This document shows, piece by piece, positions 5,424 through 14,572 of a DNA stretch of 33,012 bases (positions within the stretch are counted from its first letter, which is position 1; each line of letters begins with the position of its first letter). The stretch covers positions 1 through 33,012 of the forward strand of contig JANXBD010000013.1 in the NCBI GenBank assembly GCA_025057635.1. The letters run 5' to 3'. Source of the stretch: Thermoflexus sp. (lineage in GTDB: Bacteria; Chloroflexota; Anaerolineae; Thermoflexales; Thermoflexaceae). The notes beneath the pieces were generated by a model. The model saw nothing but the letters and a program-made list of their open reading frames with translations, ran no database searches and was not told where the DNA came from. Position numbers and translations under genes: made by a program.

Positions 5424-6779
5424 TCACATCTCCCGCAAGCGTGGGTTGAAGATGCGATCTAGAGCGAATCCTAACATAGCAAACCCCAGGCCGGTGATCA
5501 TCAAGAGGAAGGCTGGCTCTAGCACCCAGTAATACTGACCTCGATATGGAGCTCCATTGGCCACCGCGTTCTCGATCACCTTTCCCCAGGTAGGCAGAAC
5601 AGGATCTCCCAGGCCTAACACAGCCAGTGAGGCCTCCAGGAACACAAAGCTGGGCACCAGGATGATCAGGTTGGGGATCACCACCGGCAGCACGGGCGGG
5701 ATCAAATAGCGGAAGATGATGCGCCAGCTTCCAGCTCCGTACGCTCGGGCGGCCTCTATGTAGGGTGAGCTGCGCACTTGGATGAAAATCGCTCGGAAGG
5801 TCTTCATTGCTGTTCCAAACACGCTCAGCAGAATGCTCACCCCCAGGATCACCCAGATGCTTCGCGAGTAGAGAGTCCCGATCATAATTAGGATCGGGAG
5901 GAAGGGAAGCATCATCACCACATCATTGGCTCGCTGAATCAGATCGTCCCAAAGTCCGCCGAACCATGCGCCGATCGCTGCGATGGTGACGGTCATGAAG
6001 ATAGTTCCGACTGCCGCCAGCAATCCAAAGGTCAGGGCGACCGGTGCTCCCCATAGTAATGCGATTCGCAAATCTCGACGGAGGTGATCGGTGCCTGCTA
6101 AGCCATGCACCTTGCCATACACGACGAGCTCCGCATCAAAGGTGGTCTGGGGCTCGAATCCCAACACGCGCACCTCGACCTGATATGAGCCCTTGAGGGG
6201 CACAGGAGCTCCCTGGGAGTTGGGCACAGTGAAAAGCCCGACGGAGACCGGCAGATCTCCGATCAAGCGGCGGATCCGACGAGCCAGCGCTTCATCCTGG
6301 TCGAACCGGAAACTCCCGCTCGGTCGAGCGCTGAACTCTCCAATCAAAATCTCCCGATGGTCCGGCGTGCGCCAGAGGATGGAGACGAAGGGGGGCTTGG
6401 AAGGATACGTCGCGTCATAGAACAGATTAATTTCCGATGGGAAATCGTCTGCTCGATATTCAAAGACGTAGAGCAAGGTGATCTGCTTGCCTTCCTGAGT
6501 GGGCTTTTCAGCACGGGCGGCTTGGCCGCGTCGGGAGTCCAGGGCAATGGTTTCCGGCAGTTTTTCCCTTCGGAACCAATTGAGCCAAGCTGGCGGGGCC
6601 GTGCGGGGCAGGGCGCGCCAGGTTTGCTCACCGGCCCTCCACAGTTCGATGGCCTGCGAATATGGCATGGTAATCACGGTATAGATGGAGACCAGCACCA
6701 GAAGGCCAATGATGACCAGCCCGAGAAGCGCGGAGGGATAATATCGGAGCTGATGGAGTGCATCTCGCAGGCCCTGCAC
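5424..6779 (-). CDS. DppC-type ABC permease with a large extracytoplasmic insertion
   Basis: This membrane subunit of 451 residues is much longer than the roughly 280-310 usual for DppC/OppC. TM1 is at about 16-38. Residues about 40-227 are a soluble, beta-rich insertion (for example TLLYVFEYRADDFPSEIN, GSYQVEVRVLGFEP) that would sit outside the membrane. The normal permease core then starts with the family motif GTDHLRRDL (229-237), and the EAA loop is at 342-361 (IEAARAYGAGSWRIIFRYLI). The start is GTG at 6779, supported by GGGAGG 8 nt upstream. It follows the DppB-type gene by 55 bp and precedes the DppD gene by 3 bp. The insertion probably contacts the binding protein or substrate; that is inference. 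Confidence 0.9.
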   Translation of the reverse strand: MQGLRDALHQLRYYPSALLGLVIIGLLVLVSIYTVITMPYSQAIELWRAGEQTWRALPRTAPPAWLNWFRREKLPETIALDSRRGQAARAEKPTQEGKQITLLYVFEYRADDFPSEINLFYDATYPSKPPFVSILWRTPDHREILIGEFSARPSGSFRFDQDEALARRIRRLIGDLPVSVGLFTVPNSQGAPVPLKGSYQVEVRVLGFEPQTTFDAELVVYGKVHGLAGTDHLRRDLRIALLWGAPVALTFGLLAAVGTIFMTVTIAAIGAWFGGLWDDLIQRANDVVMMLPFLPILIMIGTLYSRSIWVILGVSILLSVFGTAMKTFRAIFIQVRSSPYIEAARAYGAGSWRIIFRYLIPPVLPVVIPNLIILVPSFVFLEASLAVLGLGDPVLPTWGKVIENAVANGAPYRGQYYWVLEPAFLLMITGLGFAMLGFALDRIFNPRLREM

Positions 6780-6834: not shown

Positions 6835-7971
6835 TCAGGCTTGTCCGCCTTCCCCGATTCGAACGCGTGGATCTAGGATGGCGTAGATGATATCGAGAAC
6901 GAACACGGTGATCGCTAGAAGATAGGCAAAGATCACTGTAGCTCCCACGATCACAGGAGTGTCGAATAGCCCAATCGCCTGATAGAGCGTGCGGCCCATT
7001 CCGGGCCAATTAAAAACGGACTCTAGGATCGGCGCACCCATCCACAAGCTGATCACCGTGAGCATAAAGTTGGTCATGATCGGCGGCAGCGTTGGCCTTA
7101 GGATGTAACGATATTCGATTGCTCGCCCGCTTAATCCCTTTGCCTTTGCCAACTCCACGTAGTCCTCGCTGGAGTAGATCAAGAAGAATGTCCGCCAAGA
7201 ATAAACGCTGATGAAGATCGAGCTGATGAAGAGGGCAGAGACGGGGAGGATCATGTGCTTGAGCACGCCGAGGGCATATTCCGGGAAGGTGGGCGGAGGA
7301 GGGGCGTCCACTAATCCCCCGAAGGGAAGGAGGCGAAGCCAACCTGCGAAGATCACAATCAGGAAAAGCCCATAGAACCAGGGTGGGGCTGCGGATAGAG
7401 GGGAAAGCACCACGAAGGCTCGATCTAGCCAGCTTCCATAGTTACGAGATAGCATCAAGGCGATCATAACGCTGAAAAAGAAGATCAACAGATCCGCTGT
7501 TGCGAACAGGAGGATCGTAGTCGGTAGACGTTCGATGAGAATCCATTGAACTTGTCGGGATCCAGAATCGCTGCTCATCAGCTGAGCGAAGCCCAAGCGC
7601 AAGGTCAGTGCGTTCTGGAGGAAATAAGCGCTTCGCACCAGAAAGGGTTGATCCAGCCCTAGCCGTCGCTCCTCCAGGCGAGCTTGCTCCTCGATGATGC
7701 GCAGTCGATCTTCCGGGCTATGCATACGCATTGCCGGATCGTTTATCACCCGGATCGCGATCTCCTCGCGGATCTCCGCTTTGCGGATCTGATCTACATA
7801 TCCGCCCATGTTCGCGATCAGGATGGTCATATAGACTCCGACAACCACGGTGATCAGCAGTGTGAAACCTCGGATCACCGTGTATCGGGCCAACTGAATC
7901 AAAGTCGTTTGCGCCCATGAGGCTCGAAGGAATTTGCGGAGCTCTGCCAACCCAACGGTAGAAATGCTCAT
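6835..7971 (-). CDS. DppB-type ABC permease
   Basis: This permease of 378 residues has TM1 at about 34-56, an extracytoplasmic segment of about 100 residues containing the conserved RRLGLDQPFLVRSAYFL, and a C-terminal core of five TM segments. The EAA loop reads ELAKAKGLSGRAIEYRYIL, and the family motif VFNWPGMGRTLYQAI is present. ATG at 7971 has AAAGGAAA upstream. It pairs with the DppC-type subunit to form the channel. The end overlaps no gene; 55 bp follow before the DppC-type start. Confidence 0.92.
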   Translation of the reverse strand: MSISTVGLAELRKFLRASWAQTTLIQLARYTVIRGFTLLITVVVGVYMTILIANMGGYVDQIRKAEIREEIAIRVINDPAMRMHSPEDRLRIIEEQARLEERRLGLDQPFLVRSAYFLQNALTLRLGFAQLMSSDSGSRQVQWILIERLPTTILLFATADLLIFFFSVMIALMLSRNYGSWLDRAFVVLSPLSAAPPWFYGLFLIVIFAGWLRLLPFGGLVDAPPPPTFPEYALGVLKHMILPVSALFISSIFISVYSWRTFFLIYSSEDYVELAKAKGLSGRAIEYRYILRPTLPPIMTNFMLTVISLWMGAPILESVFNWPGMGRTLYQAIGLFDTPVIVGATVIFAYLLAITVFVLDIIYAILDPRVRIGEGGQA

Positions 7972-8146
7972 CCCAATTTCCTTTCCAATCCGAAGAAAGG
8001 ATCATCAAATGGCAAATCCGCTCTATTGGTCGGGGACGCCCTATGATCGAAGTCTCCGAAGGGCTGGAAAGTGCCTTCCTCAAATGGGCAGGATGGCCCG
8101 GGCTAACCTCATTGCCGTGATCGGTAGCATATGTTGGCGAATAGCA

Positions 8147-8163
8147 CGGAGGATGATCCTCCG
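8147..8163. repeat. Short palindrome in the binding protein-permease spacer
   Basis: The sequence cggaggat-g-atcctccg has perfect 8-bp arms around one base. It lies in the 436-bp spacer 7972-8407, which has no convincing gene. As RNA it would fold as a 6-bp stem with a 5-nt loop. No function can be assigned. Confidence 0.4.
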
Positions 8164-8272
8164 GAGACAAGCAAGGATCCTCAGATTTGATGCGGGAGCA
8201 GAAATGTGGTCGGAGGCTGCGTTTTCGCTCCTCAAGTCTGAACGGGAACTCTTCAGCCGTGCAATGGTGCTG

Positions 8273-8308
8273 AGGGAACGGGGCCATTCAGGGACGGCCC
8301 CGCTCCCT
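8273..8308 (-). repeat. Strong intercistronic hairpin between binding-protein and permease genes
   Basis: Two 13-nt arms (8273-8285 and 8296-8308) pair with a single mismatch (8278/8303) around a 10-nt loop; the core is CGGGGCC / GGCCCCG. There is no T-tract on either side, so it is not a classical terminator. Hairpins at this place in binding-protein operons are known to protect the upstream message and lower downstream expression, which would give an excess of the binding protein. That role is inferred here. The hairpin lies about 100 nt past the stop of the binding-protein gene. Confidence 0.6.
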
Positions 8309-8407
8309 TAGGGGGATAACCTCATGAACCCGATCAAGGAGCGGGGGCGTTGCCACGGATAGAAAGAGGCAAGCTCCGCCTATCCGCCTCGATTCCCCAC
8401 CGCGTCC

Positions 8408-10861
8408 TTACGGACCTACTACCGCCAGCTCGCGGGCGGCCAGCGCGGGCACGCTAACCAGCTTTGAGATGGCCGCCACCTCCAGCTTTACGGTGCCCGT
8501 GGGGAACCGGCCCGTTATATCGCCCGTAAGGACAACCCGATAGCGGCCCTCTGCCGTGAACTGGGCTGGCCCACTGGTCAAAAGATTCCCCTGAGGATCG
8601 AAGACCAGGAATTTGACCTCTTGTAGCTCGGCAGCCGGATATGGCTGATCTTCGAAGGTGATGAACACGTCAAATATTGCTTCCTGACCTCGGGAGATCT
8701 GGCTAGGCCCTTCCACTTCCACGGCAGCGATCTTGGGCTTCGCAAACCGAGCCCACTTGTCTGCGGGATCGGGATAGCCTTCGTAGCGCCTCAGGGTCAG
8801 GATTTTGGCCGTTGGGTCGACCTGTGCCAGGATGTAGGGGCCGGTGCCCACCCAGAAATGCTTATATTGGTCATACCATTTCGCCAGGTTGGCGTAACGG
8901 CTGGCCGCCTCATCGGCTGTCACATACTTGCCCATCGTAGGTTCGTAGGGGATGAACTTCTGGCTTTGCGCCTGATCAAGATACTTCTTTAGGATGGGCA
9001 GGCTAGGCCCAGATACAAAAGACATCCACTCCACTTTCAGTTGCTCGGCCTTGTTGCTCGAGAACGCTAGCTCTTTATTCGAGTCCGCTAGATATCCAAG
9101 GGCCAGAGCGTGCCAAGGCAATTGCCCGTACGCATAATACGGCCACCAGGTCGCGACGAGATTCTCCGCATCCAGGGTGAACAGATCCTCATAGGTTTCG
9201 ATGACCAGAGGGTCGGTGGAGACAATTCGCACTCCTTTGAAATGCTGCAGAAAGTTATCCACGGTTGGCTTTATGGCCTCGTCAAAGATGGGGCTGCCCT
9301 CCTTCCCAGGGTCAAACGTCATGATCATCAACATCACGAAATCCCCCACAGTCAGGGGGCTTCCATCGTGCCAGCGCACTTTCTGGAAGAGATCCCTGGG
9401 GTAATAAACAGTGACCTTTACTCGGGCGGTGACCGTCTGGTTGAACTTCTCCCCAGCCGTAATGAAGCGCTGGTTGACTGGATCCCAGTCGACCCAGGCA
9501 TCGGATGGAACCTCGATCCGGTCTGCGAACTGCAGATCGACCCAATCCAGGGTCTTGATCACCGGCAGGCCTCGCTGAACCACCACCTGGGCCCGCTCGA
9601 CGCGGTTGGGGAGATTTAACCCCGTGTATGGATCGGGGATGACGGCGTATTCTCCCAGGCCCCGCTGGATCACAGTGTCAGATGACCAGTTGGAGCCGGC
9701 GATCGGATTCCAAGGTTGGACGAGCACATCCGGCTGTCCCCAACGAACCCGACCGCCTGCCTGATCCTTAAAGCGTAGGGTAAAGGGCCAGAGCGGCGTG
9801 CCCTCCACACCTCCGGCCAGATCCGCGGCCACCTCCAGCCTAGATAAGTGTGGGGTGAACTTCTGGGCATCCACCAGCCAGACCCGGACCGAATCCTGGA
9901 GGGCAAGCTCCATTGCTCGGGTAAACAGTTGTCCTCGCTCTTCCATCGTAGAGAACTGGTTGTTCGCCAGCTTTTGAGCGATCTCGAAGAACTCGGGCGT
10001 GGGCGTATAAGCCTGCCATAGCCGAGCAGGCTGTCCAAGCTTTGTATAGTAAAAGGCGAAGTTCAAACCAGAATCCCGTTCTACCGCCGTAGTGAGCCAG
10101 CCGCCCGTGTAGAGATGCCACTTGCCCTCCGCTGGATCGGATTGAATCCAGATAGGGGCGGCCTCGATCCGGTTTTTATACTGACGATCCACGGTGAAGC
10201 CCAGCTTCTCCAACTGGGTGGCGACGTAGTCGCCGATTTGTATCCGCTCGTCATCGTTCCGGATGATAAAGATCAGCGTAATCGGCTGGCCCTTGTAGGT
10301 CCACTTCCCATCTGCCCCCTGCTGAGCGCCCAACTCGGTCAGTCGCTTGGAGATTACCTCTCGAGCCCGGTCGAGATTATAAGCGTATTTGGTCTCTAGG
10401 GGCCGGATTGTATCCAGATAGCGAATGTAATCCGGAAAGGCGGAAACCACGGGCAGGATCTTAGAGGTGGCTAAGCCGCCGAAGATTTCCTGGACGATGA
10501 AATTGCGATCCACCGCCCAGTTCATCGCCTCCCGGATTTGGGGATCCCCGAAAGGATTCAGACGGCCGTCCTGAAAGTTCAACACCGGGTTGAACGTCAG
10601 CTCATACGAAACTCCGAAGGCGGCAGAGTAAGTTAATTCTGGATCCGCCTGGATGCGTCGAAATCGCTCCGGCCCGCCCACGCCATGTGCGAAGATATCG
10701 ATATCCCGTGAGAGCAGGCGGGCGATCCCTTGCTCATCATTTTCCAAGGCCAAAACGACTATTTCATCCGGCCGGGCGCCGGCGCGTGTCGCAGGTCGGC
10801 AGGCGCCCAGAAAGAGGGCCAAGGCTATCCCAAGCGAAAGTATAGCGAATATCCGCTTCAT
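8408..10861 (-). CDS. Substrate-binding lipoprotein, SBP family 5, with apparently permuted halves
   Basis: This lipoprotein of 817 residues is the extracytoplasmic receptor of the peptide-type importer. The signal peptide ends in a lipobox LGAC (C21). The start ATG 10861 has a near-perfect AAAGGAGG 8 nt upstream. Family-5 motifs are present but in swapped order: the usually C-terminal ones come first (RLLSRDIDIF 49-57ff, REAMNWAVDRNFIV 110-123), then the usually N-terminal ones (DPYTG about 410-414, VRWHDGSPLTVGDFV 495-509, GTGPYIL 672-678). Residues about 715-817 form a beta-rich, Ig-like end. Usual length is about 500-600. It is the first gene of the transporter cluster. The substrate is unknown: peptides are likely, but sugars are possible. 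Confidence 0.88.
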   Translation of the reverse strand: MKRIFAILSLGIALALFLGACRPATRAGARPDEIVVLALENDEQGIARLLSRDIDIFAHGVGGPERFRRIQADPELTYSAAFGVSYELTFNPVLNFQDGRLNPFGDPQIREAMNWAVDRNFIVQEIFGGLATSKILPVVSAFPDYIRYLDTIRPLETKYAYNLDRAREVISKRLTELGAQQGADGKWTYKGQPITLIFIIRNDDERIQIGDYVATQLEKLGFTVDRQYKNRIEAAPIWIQSDPAEGKWHLYTGGWLTTAVERDSGLNFAFYYTKLGQPARLWQAYTPTPEFFEIAQKLANNQFSTMEERGQLFTRAMELALQDSVRVWLVDAQKFTPHLSRLEVAADLAGGVEGTPLWPFTLRFKDQAGGRVRWGQPDVLVQPWNPIAGSNWSSDTVIQRGLGEYAVIPDPYTGLNLPNRVERAQVVVQRGLPVIKTLDWVDLQFADRIEVPSDAWVDWDPVNQRFITAGEKFNQTVTARVKVTVYYPRDLFQKVRWHDGSPLTVGDFVMLMIMTFDPGKEGSPIFDEAIKPTVDNFLQHFKGVRIVSTDPLVIETYEDLFTLDAENLVATWWPYYAYGQLPWHALALGYLADSNKELAFSSNKAEQLKVEWMSFVSGPSLPILKKYLDQAQSQKFIPYEPTMGKYVTADEAASRYANLAKWYDQYKHFWVGTGPYILAQVDPTAKILTLRRYEGYPDPADKWARFAKPKIAAVEVEGPSQISRGQEAIFDVFITFEDQPYPAAELQEVKFLVFDPQGNLLTSGPAQFTAEGRYRVVLTGDITGRFPTGTVKLEVAAISKLVSVPALAARELAVVGP

Positions 10862-11134
10862 CTCTTCTCCTCCTTTCTTTGAAGGGCTCAAAAGAGAATG
10901 AACATGCACTCCTTGCACCGGAGATGCGGATAACCCTGCTCAAAGCATGCGGGGTCTTTCCTCTTGAGCCGCTTGAAAACGGGAAGCAAAGATCGGGGTG
11001 AATTGAAGATATGGCCTTCTTGTTCCCAAAAGCCAGCCCTTTAGCAGAGTGAACGGGGAGGATCCTAGCACTCCCGAGGTTGCCGGGCCTATCCTCCAGA
11101 AGTAGAGATTTCCCTCATCTCACTAGCGGTGCAC

Positions 11135-11359: not shown

Positions 11360-12928
11360 ATGGATATATTGCAGCAGTTATGGGCCTGGCTGGCAGACCC
11401 GAACGTGGCGTATCTTCTGCTGGTGGGTGGGATCCTAGCGGCTGTCGCCGCCTGGAGCATTCCGGGTACCGGGCTTGGGGAGGGCCTGGCCATATTGATG
11501 TTGGGCCTGGCCTTGATCGGCTTATTGCGCCTGTCGATCAGCATGGCAGGCCTCTTGCTGATCCTGCTGGGCGCCCTCATGCTCCTATCGGAGCTCTATT
11601 TCCAGAGCGGCGGATATCTCGGACTATCCGGAGCCATAGCTATAGGCATAGGCGGGATGTTCCTGCTTCCTCTAGGCACCGGACGACAGATCGCTCCGGT
11701 GGTTCTGATCGGAGCCACCATAACGGCGGCTGCGGCTTCGCTTGGTCTGGCTTTCCTAATTCGGGAGCTCGGGCATCGCCCTCCACTTCAGGCGATGGAG
11801 CATCTGATTGGGGCAGAGGGGGTTGCACAGACTGATCTGGATCCTGAGGGGACTGTCTGGGTACGGGGAGAAACCTGGACGGCGCAGGCGGTCGAGGGAA
11901 GGATCACCGCTGGAGAACGGGTTCGGGTGTTGGCGGTTCGCGGCTTGCGACTCCAAGTGACCCGTGAGGAACAGCCCTCCTCATCTTCACCTGCGCCGGC
12001 TCGGGAAGCCTCCTATCCTCCATCCACATCCGCGGGCTCAGCGACCCTAGGCAGCGGCATGGCCCTCCTTCTCGCTGTTCACTGGATCGGCTTTCTGATC
12101 TCCGGCTTGCCTATCGGAGATTTATCCCCTCAAGCCAAGTCCTCTCTCGCTATTCCCCATCGGCTCTCTGAGGAGCTTGCGGCCCGCTCCGTCGTCAAAC
12201 AGGTGGTGGCTGGGATCCTGGTAGCATTAGGATGGATGGCTCTGGGCTTGCTTCTGGTCTTACTGCTGATCAGGCCTCGAGGTTCTCAGCGGATTTTGAA
12301 GGCCGTTATGTTCGGCGTGCTGGGTTTCATGCTCTTTTTCTGCTTACGCCTCTTGACCGCCTCTCTGATTGGGCCAATTGCTCCTTGGATCCTTGCGCTT
12401 TTGGTAGGGCTTGCTTTTGGTCTAGCGTTCTGGTGGTCTCGTCGACCAGGATGGCTAGCGTCAACCCTGATGGGGTTACTGATCTGTGGTTCAGCTGCAG
12501 CTTATTTGGGTCACCTCTGGACGCCCATGGCAGCAGCCGGGCTGTTGCTTGGGATGATGTTTTACGACGCGCTAAGTGTGTATGTGTTCAGGCATATGCA
12601 ACGGCTGGCGGAGTGGGCCATCGAGGAGCGCATTCCGATGATGTTTCTCATCCCTCTTGGTTTTCCCTTTTCTAGATCGAGGGGGCCCCTCTTACTCCTG
12701 GGATTCGGAGATGTGGTGCTACCGGCGATTCTAACCTTTTCGGCCCTTCGGGCCCATCCTACGCCATGGCCAGCCGTGGGAGCGCTTCTTGGCATCCTAA
12801 TAGGATACGCGGTCATGGCCAGCCGCTTTCTAATCAGAGGGGAAAGCCACGCGGGTCTGCCTTTCCTCGCTGGAGGGGCCTTTCTGGGTTATGGGCTAGG
12901 AAGCGCGTTGGAGTGGGCCTTCGGATAA
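11360..12928 (+). CDS. NfeD-family protein fused to a presenilin-like intramembrane aspartyl protease
   Basis: One uninterrupted frame of 522 residues joins two membrane modules. Residues 1-135 are the multi-TM part of NfeD (NPGTGL-type start, SMAGLLLILLGALMLLSELY at 61-80), and 146-200 are its soluble OB-fold (GAEGVAQTDLDPEGTVWVRG at 151-170). A Ser/Pro linker spans about 205-230. Residues 233-522 have about eight TM segments with the GxGD protease signature: YD (Y402, D403 in FYDALSVYVFRHM), GFGD (448-451) followed by VVLP, and the PAL-like LPFL (500-503). These match the archaeal/bacterial presenilin-homologue family (peptidase family A22). Both catalytic Asp are present. NfeD proteins normally partner SPFH/stomatin membrane proteins; none is visible in this window. 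Start ATG has a weak GGAG 10-11 nt upstream. Confidence 0.85.
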   Translation: MDILQQLWAWLADPNVAYLLLVGGILAAVAAWSIPGTGLGEGLAILMLGLALIGLLRLSISMAGLLLILLGALMLLSELYFQSGGYLGLSGAIAIGIGGMFLLPLGTGRQIAPVVLIGATITAAAASLGLAFLIRELGHRPPLQAMEHLIGAEGVAQTDLDPEGTVWVRGETWTAQAVEGRITAGERVRVLAVRGLRLQVTREEQPSSSSPAPAREASYPPSTSAGSATLGSGMALLLAVHWIGFLISGLPIGDLSPQAKSSLAIPHRLSEELAARSVVKQVVAGILVALGWMALGLLLVLLLIRPRGSQRILKAVMFGVLGFMLFFCLRLLTASLIGPIAPWILALLVGLAFGLAFWWSRRPGWLASTLMGLLICGSAAAYLGHLWTPMAAAGLLLGMMFYDALSVYVFRHMQRLAEWAIEERIPMMFLIPLGFPFSRSRGPLLLLGFGDVVLPAILTFSALRAHPTPWPAVGALLGILIGYAVMASRFLIRGESHAGLPFLAGGAFLGYGLGSALEWAFG

Positions 12929-13110: not shown

Positions 13111-13425
13111 GTGTTGATTCAGTCAATGCCTCGGATTCGGCCTTACGAGTTAATGGTCGTTCTAGATCCAGATTTGGCTCCCGAGCAGCAGGATCAGATC
13201 GTCGAGCGTATCAAAACTGTGATCACTTCGAATGGCGGGCAGATCCAGGAAATGATCCCTTGGGGCCGTCGCCGTTTTTGCTATCCGATCCGACGGAGGA
13301 TGGAGGGCCAGTATGTTCTGATGCGGGCGGAGATGCCCGCCCATGCAGTTGCTCCTCTGGAGCGGGCCTTGCGGATCACTGAAGAAATCCTGCGCTATCT
13401 TCTAGTTCGTCTGGACGAAGAGTGA
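13111..13425 (+). CDS. rpsF: 30S ribosomal protein bS6
   Basis: This 104-residue protein binds S18 and 16S rRNA on the platform of the small subunit. The N-terminal RPYELMVVLDPDL and central GRRRFCYPIRRRMEGQYVLM segments are characteristic of S6. The start is GTG 13111 with AGGAGG 8 nt upstream; an ATG at 13126 would remove five residues (family start is usually close to the YE motif, so either is possible). It overlaps the open frame of ssb only through an unlikely early GTG; the real ssb start is 45 bp downstream. First gene of the classical rpsF-ssb-rpsR order. Confidence 0.97.
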   Translation: MLIQSMPRIRPYELMVVLDPDLAPEQQDQIVERIKTVITSNGGQIQEMIPWGRRRFCYPIRRRMEGQYVLMRAEMPAHAVAPLERALRITEEILRYLLVRLDEE

Positions 13426-13469
13426 GGAATATCATATACGCATGGAGATGCGGAGGGTGGAGTCCAGCG

Positions 13470-13880
13470 ATGCGTGGGTTGAATAAAGTGATCATTATCG
13501 GACAGGTCGGACGGGATCCGGAGATGCGTTTCACTACCAACGGGCGCTCGGTGACCACATTCCCGGTGGCCACCAGCCGGATCTGGATCGCTAGCAATGG
13601 GGATCGGCGGGAGGAGACGGAGTGGTTTAATGTCGTCGCATGGGGTGGGCTGGCCGAGGTCTGCAAACAGCGCCTCCGAAAGGGAATGTATGTGTATGTG
13701 GAGGGTCGGCTACAGACCCGGGGCTGGGAAGATGCTGAAGGGCGCCGACATTATCGGACTGAGCTGGTGGCCAATCAAATGATCTTCCTGGGTGAAGGTC
13801 GCGCCCCGATTCAGACGTTTGGGGAAGAAGAAGAAACATCAGCCGAAGAGGAGACCTCCGAAGAGTTTCCCTTCGGATGA
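13470..13880 (+). CDS. ssb: Single-stranded DNA-binding protein
   Basis: This 136-residue protein has the SSB OB-fold from the start (LNKVIIIGQVGRDPEMRF, then TEWFNVVAWGGLAEVC and KGMYVYVEGRLQTRGWED). The C-terminus is acidic and ends EEFPFG, a variant of the usual DDDIPF tip through which SSB recruits replication and repair partners; the extra terminal Gly is slightly unusual. ATG 13470 has GGAG 8 nt upstream; an upstream in-frame GTG at 13422, overlapping the rpsF stop, would add 16 non-conserved residues. Confidence 0.96.
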   Translation: MRGLNKVIIIGQVGRDPEMRFTTNGRSVTTFPVATSRIWIASNGDRREETEWFNVVAWGGLAEVCKQRLRKGMYVYVEGRLQTRGWEDAEGRRHYRTELVANQMIFLGEGRAPIQTFGEEEETSAEEETSEEFPFG

Positions 13881-13918
13881 GATTCAGCATCGCATATTCA
13901 TAGATTCGGAGGCTAGCC

Positions 13919-14281
13919 TTGGCGGAAGAGAGGAATGCGATTGAAATCCCAGCGTCGGAAGCTGTGGAGGCTGCTACAGAGGGGACAGTCTCCACGGGAA
14001 TGTCTCAGGCTGCCCCTGCGAAGGCCGCTCCGGTGCGCCGTTATGTGCAGCCGCCTCGTCTATGTTATTTCTGCGTGGAGCGCGTGACGATTGACTATAA
14101 AAACATCGACCTCCTGCGCCGGTTCGTGAACGAGCGGGCGCGCATCAAGCCGCGTCGTCAGACCGGCACGTGTGCGAAGTGCCAGCGGCGCCTCTCCGTG
14201 GCCATCAAGCGGGCGCGTCATCTAGGGCTCCTCCCCTTCACGGCAGAACATGTGCGCAAGTATGGCTGGGGAGGCGTCTAA
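13919..14281 (+). CDS. rpsR: 30S ribosomal protein bS18, zinc-binding type
   Basis: The conserved core ([17 protein letters not shown], then [19 protein letters not shown]) is that of S18, which pairs with S6 on the platform. Two CxxC pairs (C49/C52 in LCYFC and C85/C88 in CAKC) form the zinc site of the C+ type of S18. A non-conserved Ala/Glu/Pro-rich extension of about 40 residues precedes the core. The start is TTG 13919, backed by GGAGG 6 nt upstream; an ATG at 14000 is possible but has no good ribosome site. A strong terminator follows; rplI, often next in this operon, is absent. Confidence 0.95.
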
Positions 14282-14417: not shown

Positions 14418-14572
14418 TCGTTTTGAATGGGAAGCCCGAAACCTGAAGGGCCAAGCCCTGCCGGAGAGCCTGCAAGGACAAAGGTCCGCTATCTGATTCC
14501 AAGAAGAAATCGTTGGAAGCTCTCGTTGACCCTGGAGGGTCAATCCAACTAACTTCGAGGGAAGACCCTGGC

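Follow-up and report, generated by a model that had tools for sequence, protein, structure and literature searches.

An NfeD module fused to a presenilin-like intramembrane protease domain throughout Thermoflexus, with a putative role in membrane-protein quality control

One open reading frame in a contig of Thermoflexus sp. raises the question of whether an NfeD module and a presenilin-like aspartyl protease domain truly form a single protein and, if so, what the NfeD module would do for the protease. To our knowledge, what PSH and other presenilin homologues of prokaryotes do in the cell has not been established. The window analysed here is the whole stretch of 33,012 nucleotides from contig JANXBD010000013.1 (assembly GCA_025057635.1), and the features of the locus are collected in Table 1.

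Table 1. Features of the fusion gene and its downstream neighbours (positions in the window; aa, residues of the fusion protein).
Feature	Position	Strand	Basis
NfeD-presenilin (PSH) fusion gene, 522 aa	11360..12928	+	ORF, Pfam, PDB phmmer, Thermoflexus alignment
NfeD integral membrane domain, aa 15-128	11402..11743	+	PF24961, E 2.8e-11
NfeD OB-fold, SPFH-partner-binding domain, aa 147-202, predicted cytosolic	11798..11965	+	PF01957, 3wwv/2k5h, model strands
Ser/Pro linker, aa 205-231, fast-evolving and length-variable	11972..12052	+	dN/dS; alignment gaps
PSH/presenilin-like domain, aa 232-522	12053..12925	+	PF06550, model, Foldseek, positive-inside pattern
Predicted catalytic motif YD (Y402-D403), TM6	12563..12568	+	Invariant; D403 aligns with PSH D162
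Predicted catalytic motif GFGD (448-451), TM7	12701..12712	+	Invariant; D451 aligns with PSH D220
AGLP (498-501), PAL-motif equivalent	12851..12862	+	Same letters as archaeal PSH 273-276
rpsF-ssb-rpsR, downstream neighbours of the fusion	13111..14281	+	Pfam; tblastn synteny

The ORF at 11360-12928 is one intact gene in which NfeD is joined to a complete presenilin/PSH domain. The original prediction, made from the letters alone, had described one frame with an NfeD module, a Ser/Pro linker and a C-terminal membrane module, and ORF analysis and Pfam agree on this arrangement. Both halves scored above curated Pfam cut-offs: the membrane half of NfeD matched PF24961 (43.9 bits, cut-off 26), the OB half matched PF01957 (E = 4.2e-16; 59.3 bits, cut-off 29.1) and residues 295-514 matched PF06550 (SPP/presenilin; E = 6e-27; 95.3 bits, cut-off 23.9), with a further match of the protein to Peptidase_A22B. 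The best scores of the C-terminal half were to protease families. A phmmer search of the PDB matched residues 282-521 to archaeal PSH (4hyc; 2e-19) and residues 146-206 to a stomatin operon partner protein (3wwv; 1.8e-8), and 2k5h was a further match of the OB domain. Pfam found no N-terminal ClpP-like domain, so the protein is not of the NfeD1b form. On the NCBIfam equivalog model for PSH (NF041679), the fusion scored 101 bits, under the cut-off of 125, which makes its PSH domain a diverged relative and not an equivalog in the strict sense. A promoter scan gave one promoter-like site, versus 1.0 expected by chance, and terminator-like sites fall within the gene itself.

The motifs on which the protease assignment had first been based, YD (402-403), GFGD (448-451) and LPFL (500-503), are all present, and Y402, D403, GFGD and AGLPFL are invariant in an alignment of eight Thermoflexus proteins. 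Aligned to archaeal PSH, D403 corresponds to D162 and D451 to D220, both of which are essential for that enzyme (PMC2947513), and the AGLP of the fusion, a PAL-type motif before TM9, falls on the identical AGLP. This alignment suggests that D403 would face D451, and the fusion is predicted to be an active protease. AF2 modelling of the whole protein with eight close relatives was poor (pLDDT 42.7), the beta strands of the OB domain being fairly confident, and for this reason only the C-terminal half was modelled further, on 26 Chloroflexota rows. The resulting model was of moderate quality (pLDDT 68, pTM 0.61). It shows nine long helices and, between TM6 and TM7, a beta hairpin; within that quality its leading Foldseek matches were PSH 4hyc, human SPPL2a and PSEN1 of gamma-secretase (E from 2.3e-6 for 4hyc to 7e-4, probability 1.00). 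By this model, the C-terminal half would adopt the nine-TM presenilin fold. Hydropathy and the positive charges of the PSH part fit an N-in/C-out orientation, which is that of presenilin, and the same orientation would be imposed by a cytosolic NfeD OB domain, such as that of S. aureus NfeD (PMC11222466). Taken together, family matches, motifs, fold search and conservation bear out an architecture of NfeD plus a GxGD intramembrane protease.

The fusion was present in all nine sampled Thermoflexus species, one genome each. Eight of these genomes, one of them a single contig, carry it as one open frame of 516-526 aa; in G002 it is split into two pieces that both run into contig ends. Pairwise dN/dS was about 0.08-0.2 for the NfeD part (0.08-0.16 for the OB domain), 0.12-0.38 for nearly all pairs of PSH parts and mostly about 0.4-0.7 for the Ser/Pro linker, saturation making the largest dS values rough. 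Purifying selection acts on both halves. Because the fusion is conserved genus-wide across independent assemblies and dN/dS is low in both halves, a sequencing frameshift, a join error or a decaying half is excluded. The fusion precedes rpsF-ssb-rpsR and then a SurA/parvulin-like gene at 14513, a synteny seen in 7 of 8 other Thermoflexus loci. At locus L012 (G001:C18), no rpsF-ssb-rpsR follows the fusion in the stretch examined and an integrase-like frame was noted by eye at ~5725-6603, which suggests a local rearrangement. Upstream of the fusion in the window lies a gene for a family-5 solute-binding protein of unusual length (836 aa; 8408-10918, minus strand), whose Pfam matches fall in two separate stretches, with an ABC permease gene beyond it.

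According to the original prediction, the intramembrane protease stands in for the ClpP-type protease of long NfeD, and this the genomes do not support. Exactly two NfeD genes occur in each Thermoflexus genome, one being the fusion and the other a long NfeD; in the fusion's own genome the latter (NfeD1b_N, ClpP-like and NfeD domains) is a separate gene at 7158-8543 of locus L020 (G000:C111). The NfeD halves of the fusions formed one clade in a tree (100/100), outside the long-NfeD clade and among short NfeDs of unresolved order; in that tree, the L101 row labelled 'short' probably represents the terminal part of a long NfeD that meets a contig edge. Replacement of the long form was rejected, as the genus keeps its ClpP form and the fusion belongs to the short type; a more apt description of the fusion is a short NfeD of the stomatin-operon type to which a protease domain has been added. 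The long NfeD at L020 is followed by a response-regulator-like gene and a bPH_5-domain gene. At L101 (1-1324, G029), a long NfeD truncated where the contig ends precedes a minimal NfeD-like frame, after which comes the stomatin gene, apparently two NfeD forms in one operon.

The best relatives of the NfeD half in other families of the class are stand-alone short NfeDs that lie directly upstream of an SPFH gene. The four closest have open frames of 212-239 aa and are 43-47% identical to the NfeD half of the fusion, and the SPFH gene beside them is ~70% identical to a Thermoflexus stomatin (Band_7). This stomatin is kept in all nine Thermoflexus genomes (the other eight are 88-95% identical to the copy of the fusion's own genome), and in none of the nine does an NfeD gene adjoin it. 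Because the relatives lie upstream of stomatin and the Thermoflexus stomatin is without NfeD, the simplest reading is that, in an ancestor of Thermoflexus, a short NfeD would have become separated from the stomatin operon and acquired a C-terminal PSH of the archaeal type. No SPFH gene was found near the fusion in any Thermoflexus locus examined, and hence the pairing of the fusion with an SPFH protein is drawn from these relatives. No SPFH neighbour of the long NfeD was detected at L020, or likewise in G004 and G005. Since long NfeDs adjoin the same stomatin type in some members of the class (L115, L119 and L121), the Thermoflexus stomatin could belong to the long NfeD.

A survey of Chloroflexota genomes found the fusion in 9 of 9 Thermoflexus genomes and in none of the 387 other sampled genomes of the class, from which PF06550 was absent altogether. 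Elsewhere in Chloroflexota, PSH occurred in 22 of 294 genomes of the class of G626 (probably Dehalococcoidia), one of them under the family cut-off. These PSHs are stand-alone, with open frames mostly of 284-371 aa and without NfeD, carry GGGD and PALP/PAMP-type motifs and scored no higher than ~55 bits when compared with the Thermoflexus PSH; archaeal PSH reached 105 bits against the Thermoflexus PSH half, at 31% identity. These scores place the PSH half nearer to archaeal PSH than to the Dehalococcoidia-type PSHs, and transfer from archaea is its likely source. Near stand-alone PSH genes of Chloroflexota, no NfeD or SPFH gene was found in 11 of 12 cases. An isolated and weak observation was made in G715, of the class of G626, where a small NfeD-like OB frame (L034, 10297-10776, minus strand; 40% identity over 55 aa) lies ~4 kb from a stand-alone PSH gene. 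A tblastn search of plasmids found no relative.

NfeD OB domains bind SPFH proteins (PMC2636767, PMC11222466), and PSH cleaves TM segments (PMC2947513). We propose that the NfeD module, through its membrane helices and cytosolic OB domain, would bind a scaffold of the SPFH/stomatin type, and that the covalently attached, catalytically competent PSH (N-in/C-out, with Asp403 and Asp451) would thereby be placed in the membrane domain of that scaffold, where it could cleave misfolded or leftover membrane proteins within their transmembrane segments. As a whole, an NfeD module that ties an active intramembrane aspartyl protease to such a scaffold is the best explanation of the locus, with a probability of roughly 0.55. 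Removal of damaged membrane proteins would be the most likely role of a stomatin-delivered protease, and a putative role of the fusion in membrane-protein quality control is plausible. Counted against the scaffold model were the scarcity of NfeD and SPFH genes around stand-alone Chloroflexota PSHs, the lack of an SPFH gene beside the fusion, a long NfeD in Thermoflexus that is equally unlinked, the NF041679 score below its cut-off and a structural model of only moderate quality.

Alternatively, NfeD could merely target, oligomerise or stabilise the protein in a hot membrane, with PSH acting as a regulatory or signal-peptide-type protease that has no SPFH partner. The syntenic partners of the fusion, which are rpsF-ssb-rpsR and the SurA/parvulin-like gene rather than an SPFH gene, would fit such a role, as would the PSHs that stand alone elsewhere without NfeD; however, the low dN/dS of an OB domain that is described as partner-binding, and the stomatin genes that adjoin its closest relatives in the class, make this unlikely. 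Rather improbable, in our judgement, is regulated processing of the scaffold, in which PSH would cut stomatin or its own NfeD partner complex, much as the long NfeD serine protease of archaea reportedly acts with stomatin, instead of serving general quality control. A protease fused in this way would lie next to the scaffold, and in Pyrococcus an NfeD homologue, itself a serine protease, interacts with the stomatin of its operon (PMC2636767), but PSH cuts TM segments, the one hydrophobic stretch of the stomatin, at its N-terminus, also occurs in relatives that have a short NfeD with no protease, and no special cleavage-site signal was seen. The chance that a frameshift or assembly error joined two adjacent genes, or that a non-protease membrane protein bears the motifs by accident, is negligible: the fusion initially came to light in a draft bin (76.65% complete, 201 contigs), but it recurs in one frame and at a near-constant length in eight genomes, the single-contig one among them, with invariant motifs and with presenilin/SPP families as best matches.

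Both parts of the protein belong to known families, and only their combination is undescribed in the open-access literature searched. There, as the original prediction had supposed, no protein architecture of NfeD plus presenilin was found (most subscription journals and architecture databases lay outside this scope), and the main text of a paper on Thermoflexus proteases makes no mention of presenilin, A22 or NfeD. A fusion kept throughout a genus is a 'Rosetta stone' hint that PSH-type proteases may act in SPFH membrane domains, and a concrete clue to possible working partners of the prokaryotic relatives, bacterial as well as archaeal, of the Alzheimer's enzyme. A more general partnership, in which prokaryotic presenilin homologues would be clients of NfeD/SPFH scaffolds and Thermoflexus would have fixed the association covalently, is a tentative and somewhat doubtful extension of the scaffold model; if true, it would be a bacterial parallel to the SPFH-organised or raft-associated intramembrane proteases of eukaryotes. 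The fusion, which comes from a hot-spring genus with a cultured species, T. hugenholtzii (PMC8129789), also offers a compact thermophile protein in which the guidance of an intramembrane aspartyl protease by a scaffold domain could be tested.

Compared with known systems, the fusion shares with archaeal PSH (Methanoculleus marisnigri MCMJR1, 4hyc) the nine-TM GxGD diaspartyl fold, as predicted here, and the YD, GxGD and AGLP motifs, but the archaeal enzyme is a stand-alone protein of 301 aa, whereas the Thermoflexus protein adds an N-terminal NfeD module of 204 aa and has a shorter TM6-TM7 loop. Short NfeDs (NfeD1a; operons of the YbbJ/QmcA type) likewise combine an NfeD membrane domain with an OB domain, yet the nearest relatives in the class stand alone upstream of a stomatin gene, while the Thermoflexus NfeD is fused to a protease and lies away from the stomatin gene. 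Long NfeDs (NfeD1b; PH1510/YqeZ type) also join NfeD to a protease domain, and the fusion would be a second, independent case of such a joining besides the ClpP type; there, however, the protease is N-terminal, a ClpP-like serine enzyme and outside the membrane, and here it is C-terminal, of the aspartyl type and predicted to lie within the membrane. By analogy only, HflKC-FtsH and mitochondrial SLP2-PARL-YME1L resemble the proposed arrangement in that an SPFH scaffold holds a membrane protease, but both rely on non-covalent contact and on AAA+ metalloproteases or a rhomboid as the enzyme, whereas in Thermoflexus a presenilin-type enzyme is covalently attached to a domain of the SPFH-partner type.
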